From Leptolyngbyaceae cyanobacterium C42_A2020_001 (GTDB lineage: Bacteria > Cyanobacteriota > Cyanobacteriia > Leptolyngbyales > Leptolyngbyaceae): DNA of 64,000 nucleotides. The DNA is taken from positions 1 through 64,000 of the forward strand of contig JACYLN010000081.1 in assembly GCA_015272515.1 (NCBI GenBank). The letters run 5' to 3'. The position numbers were made by a program, and so were the translations under genes. Below, piece by piece: positions 10,412 to 29,507 of the stretch. Below the pieces are notes generated by a model that saw nothing but the letters and a program-made list of their open reading frames with translations, made no database searches and was not told the origin of the DNA. The number at the start of each line of letters is the position of its first letter. Position 1 is the stretch's first letter.

Positions 10412-10503
10412 GGAGAGATGGCTGAGTGGTCGAAAGCGGCAGATTGCTAATCTGTTGTACGGATCGAAAGGCCGTACCGAGGGTTCGAATCCCTCTCTCT
10501 CCG
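10412..10503 (+). tRNA. trnS: tRNA-Ser (anticodon GCU)
   Basis: A 92-base class II tRNA. The acceptor stem GGAGAGA (10412-10418) pairs with TCTCTCC (10496-10502), with discriminator G at 10503. The D-arm GGCTGAGTGG, anticodon loop TTGCTAA with GCT at 10446-10448, long variable arm (TACGG...CCGTA) and GGTTCGAATCC T-loop are all present. No CCA is encoded. It decodes AGC and AGU codons. It stands alone between mraY and a strong terminator. Confidence 0.97.
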
Positions 10504-24984: not shown

Positions 24985-26574
24985 ATGAACGTTTTACTGC
25001 TTTATCCGCGCTTCCCTAAAAGCTTTTGGTCTTTTGAAAAGACTTTAGCCCTGCTTGATCGTAAGGCGATGCTGCCGCCGTTAGGTTTGGTTACTGTGGC
25101 AGCGATTTTGCCTCAGTCGTGGAACTTCAAACTAGTCGATCTCAACGTCCGTTCAGTGACCGCAGCCGAATGGGCATGGGCAGACTTGGTGATTTTGTCT
25201 GCCATGATTGTGCAGAAGGAAGATTTGCTCAACCAAATCGCGGAGGCAAAACAGCGAGGTAAAAAAGTTGCAGTAGGCGGACCTTATCCAACAGCACTAC
25301 CTGAAGAGGCAAAAACCGCTGGTGCAGATTATTTAATTCTTGATGAAGGGGAAATTACCCTGCCCCTGTTTGTGGAGGCGATCGCTCGGGGAGACGGTTC
25401 TGGTATTTTTCGATCAAACGGTGAAAAACCGGATGTTACCTCAACCCCCGTTCCTCGCTTCGACTTGTTAGAGTTTGATGCCTACTCCGAAATGTCGGTG
25501 CAATTTTCACGAGGATGCCCCTTCCAGTGCGAATTCTGCGACATTATTGTGCTCTATGGTCGTAAACCCCGCACCAAAACGCCCGCTCAGCTACTTGCTG
25601 AACTGGAACGCCTGTATGAACTTGGCTGGCGGCGCAGTATTTTTATGGTCGATGACAACTTCATCGGCAATAAGCGCAACGTCAAGCTATTCCTCAAAGA
25701 ACTTCAGCCCTGGATGGTAGAACACGGCTACCCCTTCTCTTTTGCCACGGAAGCCTCTGTTGACTTGGCGAAGGATCAAGAACTGATGGACGCGATGGTG
25801 GCGTGTAACTTTGGAGCGGTGTTCCTCGGTATTGAAACCCCTGATGAAGAAAGCCTTGCCCTGACACAAAAATTTCAAAATACGCGAGATTCTTTGAGCG
25901 ATTCTGTTTATGCCATCACAAAATCAGGGTTGCGGGTAATGGCAGGGTTCATTATTGGGTTTGATGGGGAAAAGCCAGGAGCGGGCGATCGCATTGTCCG
26001 CTTTGTGGAGCAAACCTCCATTCCCACAGCGTTGTTCAGTATGCTTCAGGCCCTCCCCGACACAGCACTGTGGCACCGCTTAGAAAAAGAAGGACGATTG
26101 CGAAATCAACTATCTAATGGCAATCAAACGGCGCTGATGAATTTTGTGCCGACTCGTCCCTTAGAAGATATTGCCCGTGAATACGTAGAAGCCTTCTGGA
26201 CGTTATATGAACCAAAGCGGTTTTTAGATCGCACCTATCGCCACTTCCGTATTTTGGGAGAAGCGACCTACCCGAAAAAAGGCAAGCGGGCTGGCAAAAA
26301 ACTCGATTGGGTGACGATTCGAGCGCTCTTAATCATTGTTTGGCGGCAAGGGGTTATGCGCGATACTCGGTGGCAGTTCTGGCGCAACTTGTGGAATATG
26401 TATCGCTACAATCCAGGTGGGATCAGTAGCTATTTATCGGTGTGTGCCCAGATTGAGCATTTTGTGGAATACCGTGCTATTGTACGCCGCGAGATTGAAG
26501 CCCAGATTGACGACTATTTGAAAGAAGAAGCCCGTTTGCAGAAAGACACTGCGATCGCGGTTGATGCTGCTTAG
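24985..26574 (+). CDS. B12-binding-domain radical SAM protein (with DUF4070-type C-terminus)
   Basis: A 529-residue protein. The N-terminal cobalamin-binding-like domain (MNVLLLYPRFPKSFW to DYLILDEGE, residues 1-120) lacks an evident DxHxxG. The radical SAM domain follows, with CPFQCEFC (C178, C182, C185) ligating the 4Fe-4S cluster, and FMVDDNFIGNKRN, GIETPDEESL and GFIIGFDGE downstream. The C-terminal part (TRPLEDIAREYVEAFWTLYEP) matches DUF4070-containing cyanobacterial proteins. Some relatives are linked to hopanoid or tetrapyrrole methylation and ring chemistry; the substrate here is unknown. It is monocistronic and convergent with aroF. Confidence 0.88.
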   Translation: MNVLLLYPRFPKSFWSFEKTLALLDRKAMLPPLGLVTVAAILPQSWNFKLVDLNVRSVTAAEWAWADLVILSAMIVQKEDLLNQIAEAKQRGKKVAVGGPYPTALPEEAKTAGADYLILDEGEITLPLFVEAIARGDGSGIFRSNGEKPDVTSTPVPRFDLLEFDAYSEMSVQFSRGCPFQCEFCDIIVLYGRKPRTKTPAQLLAELERLYELGWRRSIFMVDDNFIGNKRNVKLFLKELQPWMVEHGYPFSFATEASVDLAKDQELMDAMVACNFGAVFLGIETPDEESLALTQKFQNTRDSLSDSVYAITKSGLRVMAGFIIGFDGEKPGAGDRIVRFVEQTSIPTALFSMLQALPDTALWHRLEKEGRLRNQLSNGNQTALMNFVPTRPLEDIAREYVEAFWTLYEPKRFLDRTYRHFRILGEATYPKKGKRAGKKLDWVTIRALLIIVWRQGVMRDTRWQFWRNLWNMYRYNPGGISSYLSVCAQIEHFVEYRAIVRREIEAQIDDYLKEEARLQKDTAIAVDAA

Positions 26575-26617
26575 GGCTTCCGTTTCACGGTCTGAGACTT
26601 TTTCCCAGACAACGCGT

Positions 26618-27499
26618 TTACCGAGTTAGCAGCACCTTTTCAGCACTGGTTTTCTCATCATTCTTGGCGGAATTACTGCCCAACTTGCGCCCAATTGCAG
26701 CCGCAACTGGCGCTAAACTGTCAACCAAAGCTGTCATGGCATTTAATGACAATGCCTGGCGTGCATCAGAAACAGACTGCTCCGGCTCAGGATGACATTC
26801 GATAATTAAGCCATCGGCTCCACAGGCGATTGCCGCCCGTGCCAGATCGGGGATTAGTTCCCGTTTTCCGGTAGCATGGCTGGGATCCACAATCACAGGC
26901 AGATGAGTAAGTTGTTTCAGCGCTACGACCGCCCCCAGATCCAGCACATTCCGAGTGTAGGAGTCGAAGCTACGAATCCCCCGTTCACACAGCACCACAT
27001 TAGGGTTGCCGTGCGCCAGAATGTACTCCGCTGCCATCACAAACTCTTCAATCGTGGCGGCTAATCCCCGCTTTAGCAATACAGGCTTGTTTGCTTCACC
27101 CAGCGCCTTTAAGAGCTCAAAATTTTGCATATTGCGGCTACCTACCTGGAGCATATCGGCATAGGCGCATACCGGTTCAATTTGAGCGATCGCCATTACC
27201 TCGGTTACCACAGGCATTCCATACTGTTGCCGAACTGATGCCAGCACTCGCAGCCCATCTATTCCCATTCCCTGAAAACTATAAGGGGAGGTGCGTGGCT
27301 TATACACACCTCCCCTCAAAGCTTGAACATAACTGGTTGAGAGCGTTTGGGCAATCTGCTGCATCTGCTCCAAACTCTCAACTGCACACGGGCCACCAAT
27401 CACAATCACATCTTCTGCACCAATAGCAACCCGCTCACACAGATGAACTACAGTACGGTGGTCAGAATGGGATTTAGCTGCAAGTTTTGCGTTCAACAT
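26618..27499 (-). CDS. aroF: 3-deoxy-7-phosphoheptulonate (DAHP) synthase, type I-beta
   Basis: This enzyme condenses phosphoenolpyruvate and erythrose 4-phosphate, the first step of the shikimate pathway. ATG 27499 (MLNAKLAAK) follows GGAGTC at a suitable distance; an in-frame extension to 27628 is rejected because it crosses a terminator. The 293-residue product shows IGGPCAVES, RGGVYKPRTSPYSFQG, QVGSRNMQNFELL, LLKRGLAATIEEF, CERGIRSF, VIVDPSHATG and IIECHPEPE. The catalytic domain begins only about 30 residues from the N-terminus, so neither the ferredoxin-like allosteric domain of the Thermotoga enzyme nor a fused chorismate mutase is present. Control appears to be by the tandem leader attenuators upstream. 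Confidence 0.97.
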   Translation of the reverse strand: MLNAKLAAKSHSDHRTVVHLCERVAIGAEDVIVIGGPCAVESLEQMQQIAQTLSTSYVQALRGGVYKPRTSPYSFQGMGIDGLRVLASVRQQYGMPVVTEVMAIAQIEPVCAYADMLQVGSRNMQNFELLKALGEANKPVLLKRGLAATIEEFVMAAEYILAHGNPNVVLCERGIRSFDSYTRNVLDLGAVVALKQLTHLPVIVDPSHATGKRELIPDLARAAIACGADGLIIECHPEPEQSVSDARQALSLNAMTALVDSLAPVAAAIGRKLGSNSAKNDEKTSAEKVLLTR

Positions 27500-27525
27500 G
27501 GTTAAGACTCCTAAGTGGATTGTGG

Positions 27526-27559
27526 AAATAAAAAAGCCCGGAACCTGAGTCCCGGGCTT
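27526..27559 (-). terminator. aroF attenuator 2: intrinsic terminator
   Basis: Read on the minus strand: AAGCCCGG / CCGGGCTT (8 bp; plus-strand arms 27534-27541 and 27552-27559), then TTTTTTATTT. It ends about 27 bases before the aroF start codon, so RNA polymerase must read through it to express aroF. Its upstream arm can alternatively pair with the last codons of leader peptide 2. Confidence 0.9.
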
Positions 27560-27592
27560 GTGTGAATCAATGCACAACAAACTTACCCGGGA
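27550..27592 (-). promoter_or_regulatory. aroF attenuator 2: alternative (antiterminator) pairing
   Basis: On the minus-strand RNA, TCCCGGGT (27592-27585; the His-Pro-Gly-stop end of leader 2) can pair over 8 bases, one of them a wobble, with GCCCGGGA (27557-27550), the ascending arm of terminator 2. A competing hairpin, CCAGGGA-ACA-TCCCGGG (27602-27586), can form inside the leader. These give the classical 1:2, 2:3 and 3:4 pairing options. Confidence 0.7.
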
Positions 27593-27645
27593 TGTTCCCT
27601 GGTCCAAAAATAAAATCCGTAAAACCAACTGTTCAGGTGTGACAT
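27583..27645 (-). CDS. aroF leader peptide 2 (aromatic attenuator peptide)
   Basis: ATG 27645 to TAA 27583 encode MSHLNSWFYGFYFWTREHPG. Seven of the eight residues 7-14 are aromatic (W F Y G F Y F W), covering Trp, Phe and Tyr. The stop codon abuts the CCCGGG that can form the antiterminator. Ribosome stalling on scarce Trp-, Phe- or Tyr-tRNA would leave that strand free, so the downstream terminator would not form. A ribosome reaching the stop codon would cover it and allow termination. No strong Shine-Dalgarno is visible. It is too short for normal gene calling. Confidence 0.82.
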   Translation of the reverse strand: MSHLNSWFYGFYFWTREHPG

Positions 27646-27673
27646 GCGTTGAAGATTTGCGAGTTGGGTAACT

Positions 27674-27701
27674 AAAAAGCCGCAGGTTCTGGTCTGCGGC
27701 T
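27674..27701 (-). terminator. aroF attenuator 1: intrinsic terminator
   Basis: On the minus strand, AGCCGCAG pairs with CTGCGGCT (8 bp; plus-strand arms 27678-27685 and 27694-27701), followed by TTTTT. It lies between leader peptides 1 and 2. No complete minus-strand gene ends here, so its role is best explained as premature termination in the aroF leader. Confidence 0.88.
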
Positions 27702-27746
27702 CACCTAGAGAAGTTCAGCAAATGTCTTGCTCACTCCAGGTGAACC
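27698..27746 (-). promoter_or_regulatory. aroF attenuator 1: antiterminator stem
   Basis: On the minus-strand RNA, GGTTCACCTGGAG (27746-27734, the last codons of leader 1) pairs with CTCTAGGTGAGCC (27710-27698) over 13 consecutive positions, with two G-U wobbles. The second strand includes GCC, the start of terminator 1's ascending arm, so the two structures exclude each other. A small AGCAA/TTGCT hairpin lies in the loop. Confidence 0.8.
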
Positions 27747-27778
27747 AATAGATACCAAAAGTAAAACGCTTTAAGCAT
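27731..27778 (-). CDS. aroF leader peptide 1 (aromatic attenuator peptide)
   Basis: ATG 27778 to TGA 27731 encode MLKAFYFWYLLVHLE. Residues 5-9 are Phe-Tyr-Phe-Trp-Tyr, five consecutive aromatic codons covering all three aromatic amino acids. The following Val-His-Leu-Glu codons are one strand of the 13-bp antiterminator. The ribosome's position (stalled at the aromatic codons or parked at the stop) would therefore decide whether terminator 1 forms. A candidate promoter lies about 43 bases upstream. Confidence 0.82.
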   Translation of the reverse strand: MLKAFYFWYLLVHLE

Positions 27779-27820
27779 AGTGTTGGGGAATCTGCCTACA
27801 TTTAACTACCTTAGCTCGAC

Positions 27821-27848
27821 CGTATCAGAGAAAATCTCAGAACGTCAA
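27821..27848 (-). promoter_or_regulatory. Candidate promoter of the aroF leader transcript
   Basis: Minus strand: TTGACG (27848-27843), a 16-base spacer, then GATACG (27826-27821) as a weak -10. Transcription would begin near 27813, about 35 bases before leader peptide 1. The -35 is near consensus; the -10 matches only three of six. Confidence 0.4.
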
Positions 27849-28045
27849 GCCACGAATGGGTAGACTCTACGCAATTTGTATGAATATCTACTCTTACATC
27901 CAACCGCGAGGTTAGCCAAACAACACTCTCGGAGGAACTTGAGGTTTCTTCAGTTTCTTCTGGCACTTTAAGGAGTCTTCAAATTATTTCAGTACTTATA
28001 CTGTTCAACAGTTTTTAATATGTCTACAATTAAGGACACAGGGTG

Positions 28046-28324
28046 ATGGTTAATAACATGGCTTTGGATCCAGTAGATAACGTGTGGGCAGTGCCTCTGC
28101 TTCTCGGAGCATCTTTTTTACCGCTGGTTTCTACCCCAGCCTTTTATGAAAAAGCATTCAATAATCCGTTGGTCTTCAGTATAACTGCTGAAAGAGTCGC
28201 GATCGCAAACCTTGCGGGTAATTCTGTATCTGAGTATGAACCCCCTCCTGATATCGGCAAACCTAGACGAACTGGAGGTTCAGGAGGAAGGGTCGTATCA
28301 TCTCAGGTTTTGAATGTCATTTAG
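28046..28324 (+). CDS. Small exported-type hypothetical protein
   Basis: ATG 28046 (MVNNMALDP) has AAGGA about ten bases upstream. The 92-residue product has a hydrophobic stretch, VWAVPLLLGASFLPLV, ending near a possible cut (STPAFYEKAF). Its C-terminal motif, YEPPPDIGKPRRTGGSGGR, resembles the PPxxIGxPxRRxGGGTR segment near the mature N-terminus of cyanobacterial DUF928 proteins, but the rest of that domain is absent. It could be a truncated DUF928 gene or an independent short secreted protein. It is divergent from the aroF leader and followed by a strong hairpin. Confidence 0.5.
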   Translation: MVNNMALDPVDNVWAVPLLLGASFLPLVSTPAFYEKAFNNPLVFSITAERVAIANLAGNSVSEYEPPPDIGKPRRTGGSGGRVVSSQVLNVI

Positions 28325-28341
28325 CAAAACGCCTTTCAATA

Positions 28342-28379
28342 GAAAGAGAGGAGGGTAGTAATCTATCCTCCTCTCTTTC
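28342..28379. terminator. Hairpin between the small ORF and petA
   Basis: A 17-bp stem, GAAAGAGAGGAGGGTAG / CTATCCTCCTCTCTTTC, with one G-U and a four-base loop. It sits between two convergent genes and probably ends both transcripts; flanking T-runs are short. Confidence 0.75.
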
Positions 28380-28412
28380 AGTGACTTGAACAATCAACCA
28401 GAATTAGCAAGT

Positions 28413-29399
28413 TTAAAACTGCATTTCCGCTTCTTGCACTTTCTCAATCTGCTTCTTCTTGAGCACTAGCATGATTTGAGCTAGGGTGACAATGACGAAG
28501 AAAGCAAGCAAGCCGAGAATCCGATTTGGACTTTGTAGAACGATTTCGGCATCAACCTGTCCAAATCCACCAACGTTTGGGTTGTCGGTTAAGGCATCGC
28601 CTGACTTCACTTCCTGCCCTTCAGCAATGAGTAAGGGAGGTCCCGCGGGAACGGTATCAACAACTGTGTTACCATCCGCCGTTTGGATCGTTACCTGGTA
28701 ACCACCATCTTCTGCTTTAGCAATTTGGCTAACAGTTCCACTTGCAGAGGCGTTGTAAACAGCGTTATTACTCTTTTCACCGTTGGGGTACACCTGCCCA
28801 CGTCCACGGTTTCCGCCTACGTGTACTGAGTACTTGCCGAAGGAAACACTCTTGTCTGTGTTAGGGTCGGGAGATAAAACAGGGAAGGTGATTTCCTGAT
28901 ATTGCTCACCTGGTAAGGGACCAACAACAATAATGTTTTCCTTATCTTCACTGTAGGGTTGGAAGTAGACATCCTGAACCCGTTCCTTCATTTCTTCAGG
29001 AATGCGGTCTTCGGGAGCAAGCTTAAAACCTTCAGGCAGCATTAGCACAGCGCCGACGTTTAGCGGTCCTTTCTCACCACCTGCCACAACTTGTTGAACG
29101 CTGGTATCGTAGGGGATTTTGACAACCGCTTCAAATACAGTGTCTGGTAGAACGGCTTGGGGAACTTCTACGTAAGTGGGCTTTGCTGCCAAGTGACAGT
29201 TAGCACAAACAATCCGTCCGGTTGCCTCACGGGGAGTTTCGTAAGCCTGTTGAGCAAAGATGGGATAGGCGATCGCGGTTTGAGGTAACGCCAGGCTACC
29301 AACTAGTAATAGGGTGATGGTGGCGATCGTGACTGTGGCGACGCGCCTAAGATTGGCGAGACTCTCTAGCAATACTTCTGTCAAAAAGCGTGTTCTCAT
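28413..29399 (-). CDS. petA: Cytochrome f (apocytochrome f of the b6f complex)
   Basis: The 328-residue precursor starts at ATG 29399. The signal peptide and first membrane helix cover residues 1-44, and the mature N-terminus is Y45 ([10 protein letters not shown]), whose amino group is an axial heme ligand. CANCH (C65, C68, H69) binds heme c. The large lumenal beta domain follows, and a C-terminal helix ([20 protein letters not shown]) anchors it in the thylakoid. It passes electrons from the Rieske protein to plastocyanin or cytochrome c6. It is downstream of petC with about 110 bases between, the normal cyanobacterial petCA operon. Confidence 0.98.
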
Positions 29400-29507
29400 G
29401 TCTGATTCAGGTTCAATAGCAAGGATGTGGGCAGGATCGAGGCTCAACAAGTGACAAACGCAACGAACTTCGATCAAGCGAAAATGAAACTCAGGCTAGG
29501 AAGGGAT

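Follow-up and report, generated by a model that had tools for sequence, protein, structure and literature searches.

Two putative leader-peptide attenuators in series upstream of aroF in a Leptolyngbyaceae cyanobacterium and its relatives

Layout of the aroF locus

The window (the whole stretch of DNA that was analysed, 64,000 nucleotides) encodes a 3-deoxy-7-phosphoheptulonate (DAHP) synthase, AroF, on its minus strand. In the direction of transcription, the gene is preceded by a promoter-like element, leader ORF 1, terminator 1, leader ORF 2, and terminator 2. The features, with the evidence for each, are as follows:

27843-27848, minus strand: -35-like element TTGACG of a putatively shared promoter-like site (TTGAC conservation in relatives; window sequence)
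27819-27824, minus strand: -10-like element TACGGT, with an 18-base spacer (TAnnnT conservation in relatives; window sequence)
27731-27778, minus strand: leader ORF 1, MLKAFYFWYLLVHLE and stop (sequence; relatives of type '..SYFYFWxxVVHRE' and stop)
27734-27746, minus strand: antiterminator 1, 5' arm GGTTCACCTGGAG, in the last codons of leader 1 (alignment; positions read from sequence)
27698-27710, minus strand: antiterminator 1, 3' arm CTCTAGGTGAGCC, overlapping the 5' arm of terminator 1 (alignment; positions read from sequence)
27677-27702, minus strand: terminator 1 (terminator scan, 9 pairs; 94.7% of 300 cells paired in 30 sequences)
27583-27645, minus strand: leader ORF 2, MSHLNSWFYGFYFWTREHPG and stop (sequence; relatives of type 'MTYxSSWFYGFYFWPRxSSG' and stop)
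27585-27592, minus strand: antiterminator 2, 5' arm TCCCGGGT, in the last codons and first base of the stop codon (alignment; positions read from sequence)
27550-27557, minus strand: antiterminator 2, 3' arm GCCCGGGA, which is the 5' arm of terminator 2 (alignment; positions read from sequence)
27534-27559, minus strand: terminator 2 (terminator scan, 11 pairs; 92.5% of 308 cells paired in 31 sequences)
27508-27512, minus strand: AGGAG, Shine-Dalgarno-like sequence of aroF (sequence)
26618-27499, minus strand: aroF, DAHP synthase, 293 aa (NCBIfam NF006421, 401 bits, and TIGR01361, 362 bits, both above cut-off; PF00793)

The sequence-only reading had held that nothing but aroF lies downstream, and this is the case: the first long ORF beyond it (24985-26574) runs on the opposite strand. 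A terminator scan of 26400-29400 returned seven sites (3.1 expected), including those at 27702-27677 and 27559-27534. No clear Shine-Dalgarno sequence was found for either leader in the window. The genome encodes two paralogous DAHP synthases, and neither has a leader of the tandem type upstream. One paralogue (L001) is preceded just by a 44-residue ORF lacking an FYFW-like block; the other (L002) has a short ORF (MSFYPSFYHCQS and stop) 267 bases before the gene, and the sole terminator-like site found there is inside the gene.

A very strong terminator-like hairpin (15 pairs) lies inside aroF itself, at 27318-27282 on the minus strand. The 60-base stretch folds at -31.5 kcal/mol, compared with a mean of -14.3 (sd 3.4) for synonymous random versions, none of which (0/1000) is as low. 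Resembling palindromes occur in three relatives (L004, L005, and L020) and are absent from most of the 28 checked; the hairpin may be either a third, intragenic control point or a product of chance.

Elsewhere in the window, a long near-perfect hairpin (28342-28380) lies between a short plus-strand ORF (28043-28324) and a minus-strand ORF ending at 28413, and is possibly a two-way terminator; in Rfam it drew weak microRNA-family matches and nothing else. A tRNA gene at 10412-10503 on the plus strand overlaps, in antisense, a match to the Rfam family Plastid-psbl-rps4 (68.2 bits; cut-off 68).

Leader ORFs and mutually exclusive helices

Both leaders contain Phe-Tyr-Phe-Trp, each is followed by its own intrinsic terminator ahead of the gene, and the two share TTTTAyTTTTGG, as had been proposed from the sequence, on the minus strand. 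The leader of unit 1 is rich in aromatic codons (FYFWY in the window), and an aromatic block is present in all 75 loci whose upstream DNA is long enough; the block of unit 2 (WFYGFYFW) is longer. An apparent internal repeat of the aromatic block (FYSVYFWFGFYFWFG) was seen in the unit 2 leader of Tildeniella nuda (L005).

The shared motif lies at 27766-27755 (TTTTACTTTTGG) and 27615-27604 (TTTTATTTTTGG). These are the only two matches to TTYTAYTTYTGG in the window, where 0.06 were expected, and 1 of 100 shuffles had at least two. The genome as a whole has 12 matches, and just at the two aroF-leader sites does the motif fall within a short ORF that has a terminator hairpin behind it, as judged by eye from the 60-67 bases after each stop.

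In unit 1, the putative antiterminator comprises 13 helix positions and is mutually exclusive with the terminator, the 3' end of CTCTAGGTGAGCC being the 5' arm of terminator 1. Pairing is retained in 91.8% of 390 cells of the alignment, against at most 48.3% when the arms are slid relative to each other. There are 22 cells changed on both sides (shuffled mean 8.2), a number reached by 0 of 500 shuffles. Antiterminator 2 is likewise mutually exclusive with its terminator, with modest covariation: 93.2% of 309 cells are paired (slid versions at most 55.5%), and just three cells are changed on both sides, which 27 of 500 shuffles reach, a weaker signal than that of unit 1. When distinct pairs rather than cells are counted, the number with a double change shows no clear excess over shuffles in any of the four helices (reached by 222/500 shuffles for antiterminator 1, 39/500 for terminator 1, 71/500 for antiterminator 2, and 84/500 for terminator 2).

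A partner-swap comparison used a set to which more divergent loci had been added and from which L091 and L092 (the latter lacking the terminator) had been dropped. The antiterminator arms of unit 1 pair better with their own partners than with the mean of locus-swapped partners in 53 of 57 loci (-25.7 vs. -21.2 kcal/mol; -11.9 kcal/mol with shuffled arms), and do so in 27 of 27 when the divergent loci are taken alone. The corresponding figures for unit 2 are 43 of 53 (-17.6 vs. -15.5 kcal/mol; -8.0 kcal/mol with shuffled arms) and 20 of 23. In neither unit does any locus have its own antiterminator pairs worse than the shuffled mean. As read from these alignments, covariation clearly supports the predicted switch helices of unit 1 and, more modestly, those of unit 2.

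Pairwise differences within the aromatic codons of units 1 and 2 fall mostly at the third (523 and 935) and second (477 and 539) positions, and much less at the first (57 and 58); the second-position differences are largely Phe/Tyr exchange. The UGG codon is kept in 28/30 sequences of unit 1, and the two UGG codons of unit 2 in 29/30 and 26/30. This pattern of codon variation is in keeping with selection for aromatic codons.

The conserved peptide patterns might also be expected if the short ORFs encoded functional microproteins and the hairpins were incidental, a reading to which we give next to no credence. The conserved C-terminal codons are the very ones that pair with the terminator arm, Phe and Tyr are frequently exchanged, and in two relatives (L093 and L120) the pairing arm of unit 2 has moved further upstream in the ORF with the pairing kept (about CCGGGTCAGG with CCTGACCCGG); all three observations argue against it. 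Similarly, it is extremely improbable that a riboswitch, T-box, or RNA-binding protein drives the terminators. The Rfam searches speak against it: no family matches the leader at its gathering score, and 13 relatives lack a leader match up to an E-value of 1. The closest hint is Trp_leader (RF00513) on unit 2, at 21.2 bits and so below the gathering score of 41; unit 1 does not match that family.

A shared promoter-like element

The element TTGAC occurs upstream of unit 1 in all 74 loci compared (shuffled mean 11.6), mostly 80-108 bases before the first aromatic codon (4/74 outside this range); these loci leave out one (L028) that has both leaders. It is followed after 16-18 bases by TAnnnT in 73 of the 74 (70 of them at 17 bases; shuffled 7.1), mostly with TGn before TAnnnT. 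In a search that covered promoters with a TTGAC element, the space between the units has it at 0/74 loci (shuffled mean 8.1), and the stretch from leader 2 to aroF likewise at 0/74 (shuffled 9.4). Because TTGAC is universal upstream of unit 1 in this set, absent between the units, and almost always accompanied by TAnnnT, a single promoter probably serves both units, and both appear to be carried on one RNA.

The -10-like TACGGT of the window is far from consensus, and a generic sigma-70 consensus scan of 26400-29400 returned no site on either strand (3.6 expected), the promoter-like site itself scoring below threshold. Since no site was found anywhere in that interval, the scan does not decide on a promoter between the units. 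Such a promoter would make the two units independent transcription units, and it was looked for as the observation that would undo the serial arrangement. We consider it very improbable: the distribution of TTGAC (0/74 between the units vs. 74/74 upstream of unit 1) argues against it, as does the spacing in the window, with 31 bases lying between terminator 1 and leader 2.

Distribution of the two units

The near-relative sample consisted of the best 80 of 331 AroF loci from one scan of named genomes and is therefore biased to near relatives and Nostoc. Both leaders are present in 75 of these 80, and the remaining five have just 44 to 264 bases of upstream sequence. A strain of Nostoc punctiforme (L054) is among the carriers of the tandem. 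Judged by their sequence patterns, leaders 1 and 2 are of distinct types across the relatives. Covariance models for unit 1 (R1) and unit 2 (R2) were built from 30 and 31 sequences, respectively. In a class-wide search of 242 genomes (E-value 0.1), unit 1 was found in 88 and unit 2 in 94.

AroF orthologues were defined by a cut-off of at least 324 bits (the next match being 311), giving 84 in the 242 genomes. The survey of aroF upstream regions called for by the sequence-only reading found both units at 78 of these 84, unit 1 alone at five, and unit 2 alone at one. Such retention of the two units among relatives is more than chance would give. The 78 comprise 76 identified by the models and two recognized by eye (G121 and G057; terminators seen), and span 13 families (12 by model). 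The co-location count drew on 84 AroF, 88 R1, and 96 R2 places, leaving out a weak second R2 match in one genome (G081). Three genomes (G003, G109, and G127) are not among the 84, the gene being cut or off the contig; G109 and G127 have both leaders. In 20 regions that were read directly, both leaders were present in all; these are no independent sample, because they were picked among genomes with matches to both models. Across the phylum, R2 matched in 16 of 117 genomes, 15 of them inside the class and one outside it, as a weak partial match. The weak R1 or R2 matches lying away from aroF (L096-L105) have no matching leader.

The five genomes with unit 1 alone (L086-L090) all belong to one family (f11), and the genome with unit 2 alone is G224 (locus L095). 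Two units are therefore not indispensable. The single-unit relatives lend some weight to the view that just one unit works as an attenuator, the other being vestigial or having a different role, for instance in RNA stability or in releasing a small RNA. We regard this as improbable: both units have a conserved ORF, a terminator, and conserved antiterminator pairing, and with both kept in 78 of 84 orthologues, neither is degenerate in all relatives.

Two further loci carry parts of the system. In one (L092, genome G116), unit 1 lies beside an apparently broken aroF (77 aligned residues, 48% identity); in the other (L091, genome G115), a unit 1 remnant has no aroF match in 1641 bases of sequence.

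In an AroF tree of 57 rows (without L001), the five unit-1-only genomes stand beside the unit-2-only genome (98/91). A tree of 58 rows, with both paralogues and shorter ends, and with a bootstrap that had not settled, groups each kind with a relative that has both units: the five with L122 (98/84), and the unit-2-only L095 with L107 (95/73). A sister relation of the opposite single-unit genomes is thus not robust, because the two trees disagree. Both are compatible with the single-unit genomes having lost one of two ancestral units, and neither settles the root.

Relationship between the units

The shared motif had been taken to suggest that one unit was duplicated from the other, a proposal that the searches do not support. 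In the 242 genomes (E-value 0.1), R1 had no match to unit 2 and R2 none to unit 1, under stricter filters, which are liable to miss weak matches; within the genome of the window, R1 did not match unit 2 at an E-value of 10. The helix layouts also differ. The leader end of unit 2 copies the 3' arm of its terminator; in unit 1, a separate and longer hairpin overlaps just part of the terminator's 5' arm. By the R1 and R2 searches the units show no resemblance beyond the aromatic codons, and a recent duplication is not supported. An old duplication may have been erased by divergence.

Modelled ribosome positions

Equilibrium folding of the finished RNA separated the ribosome states poorly: the probability of the terminator rose by more than 0.2 from the first aromatic codon to the stop in just 19/30 sequences for unit 1 and 14/30 for unit 2. 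After this poor result, a second measure was chosen, namely the chance that upstream RNA ties up the terminator's 5' arm while the 3' arm is still to be made. With the ribosome modelled on the codon that opens the last aromatic run, this chance was 0.74 for unit 1 and 0.91 for unit 2, and with the ribosome at the stop it was 0.26 and 0.25 (n = 30 each). The difference was at least 0.3 in 26/30 sequences of unit 1 and 30/30 of unit 2. Between the last aromatic codon and the stop, the same difference was reached in 2/30 sequences of unit 1 and 26/30 of unit 2.

Codon by codon, the modelled change comes where the aromatic block ends. A ribosome on the Trp codon of unit 1 gave 0.31-0.56 when its footprint was set to 10-13 bases, and 0.17 when it was set to 15. 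On the second Trp codon of unit 2, the corresponding values were still 0.82-0.88 and 0.66, and they fell after that codon. For unit 1 of the window, the values were 0.61-0.79 at the Phe and Tyr codons that precede Trp; they stood at 0.27 on Trp itself and 0.34 on the stop, with three codons near and before the stop still at 0.50-0.52. For unit 2 of the window, they were 0.88-0.96 across the aromatic codons and 0.26 at the stop. Because of these codon-by-codon values, gate 1 is predicted to respond mainly to Phe and Tyr, with weak sensing of Trp, and gate 2 to sense Trp too, and strongly. The proposal that the leaders sense all three aromatic amino acids stands insofar as all three are encoded in each; equal sensing does not follow, as the model gives weak Trp sensing in unit 1.

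Proposed mechanism

The ORFs, the terminators, the mutually exclusive helices with their covariation, the one promoter-like element, and the conservation of the arrangement together support the proposal of two attenuators in series on one gene. From these features of the sequence, we infer that the locus very probably encodes two ribosome-mediated transcription attenuators in one leader RNA, transcribed from one promoter, such that aroF mRNA would be made only when both have been passed.

In each unit, a ribosome would trail RNA polymerase through the short ORF. Were charged tRNA-Phe, -Tyr, or -Trp scarce, the ribosome would stall in the aromatic codons, leaving the last codons of the ORF free to capture the terminator's 5' arm by pairing, and transcription would continue. 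Were all three plentiful, the ribosome would reach the stop codon and cover the last codons, allowing the terminator to form. Each gate would then act as an OR over the amino acids that it reads, and aroF as an AND over both gates. Serial gates would be expected to multiply repression, and could sharpen the response.

A fuller reading, which we put forward tentatively and regard as slightly short of probable, is that this is an old cyanobacterial device in which two unrelated peptide attenuators with overlapping inputs form an AND of ORs. Gate 1 would open on shortage of Phe or Tyr and gate 2 also on shortage of Trp; full opening would need both, and repression would multiply when all three amino acids are plentiful.

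Relatives that carry both units, or one or the other alone, offer a ready comparison for the benefit of a second gate (dynamic range, sharpness, and input logic). In particular, L095 (G224) and L086-L090 (family f11), which have opposite single units, constitute a natural test of each gate alone.

Comparison with known systems

Classical peptide attenuators, such as the trp leader, combine a leader ORF containing regulatory codons with a mutually exclusive antiterminator and terminator, and there is normally one per operon. The aroF units differ from these in that the 5' arm of the putative antiterminator is the end of the ORF itself.

Single leader peptides are described ahead of aroF in other phyla. 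A leader peptide with Phe-Tyr-Phe likewise precedes aroF in Corynebacterium glutamicum, for which the accessible part of the source names one such peptide (PMC4046766). In Acholeplasma, the uORFC-13-1 motif consists of a uORF with at least one Phe codon, followed by a terminator and aroF, and one uORF is described in the portion available (PMC8632094). For cyanobacteria, a 2016 paper states, in the part accessible, that on attenuation 'there is no reliable data' (PMC4833913).

Serial or paired control elements of other kinds offer partial parallels, each drawn here from the accessible parts of the source. The rimP-leader has a second terminator in tandem in several Gammaproteobacteria; leader ORFs, as found in the aroF units, are not mentioned in that portion of the text (PMC2965389). 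The tandem riboswitches of metE in B. clausii are serial gates with two likely intrinsic terminators, but there the RNA senses its ligands directly, and the two ligands are different (PMC3641672). Control of ermB requires two leader peptides, ermBL and ermBL2, but operates by translational attenuation and is induced by erythromycin (PMC8274638).

The sequence-only reading had called tandem peptide attenuators rare or undescribed. The latter does not hold in general, as tandem attenuators are published for Salmonella mgtCBR; a same-input tandem at aroF was not found reported. Titles and abstract openings yielded no earlier report of tandem leader-peptide attenuators at aroF or in cyanobacteria, within a coverage outside which most subscription journals fall, and the terms 'tandem' and 'aroF' were not found in the accessible part of PMC1262725.

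The mgtCBR leader, as described in the available portion of its source, contains two short ORFs in series, mgtM and mgtP, as does the aroF leader; each belongs to an attenuator, and the two act independently on the same operon (Lee and Groisman, 2012; PMC3641672). The mgtCBR signals are ATP and proline, and its stem-loops are unlike intrinsic terminators (PMC3641672), whereas the two aroF units have codons for one and the same set of amino acids and each has its own intrinsic terminator. On the sequence evidence, the predicted aroF tandem is a real, conserved, and mechanistically coherent variant of peptide attenuation, and a new one. If the reading is true, the tandem would be a widespread one in which both peptide attenuators take the same inputs and each has an intrinsic terminator of its own; it would also be a well-supported instance, in cyanobacteria, of attenuation by amino acids.
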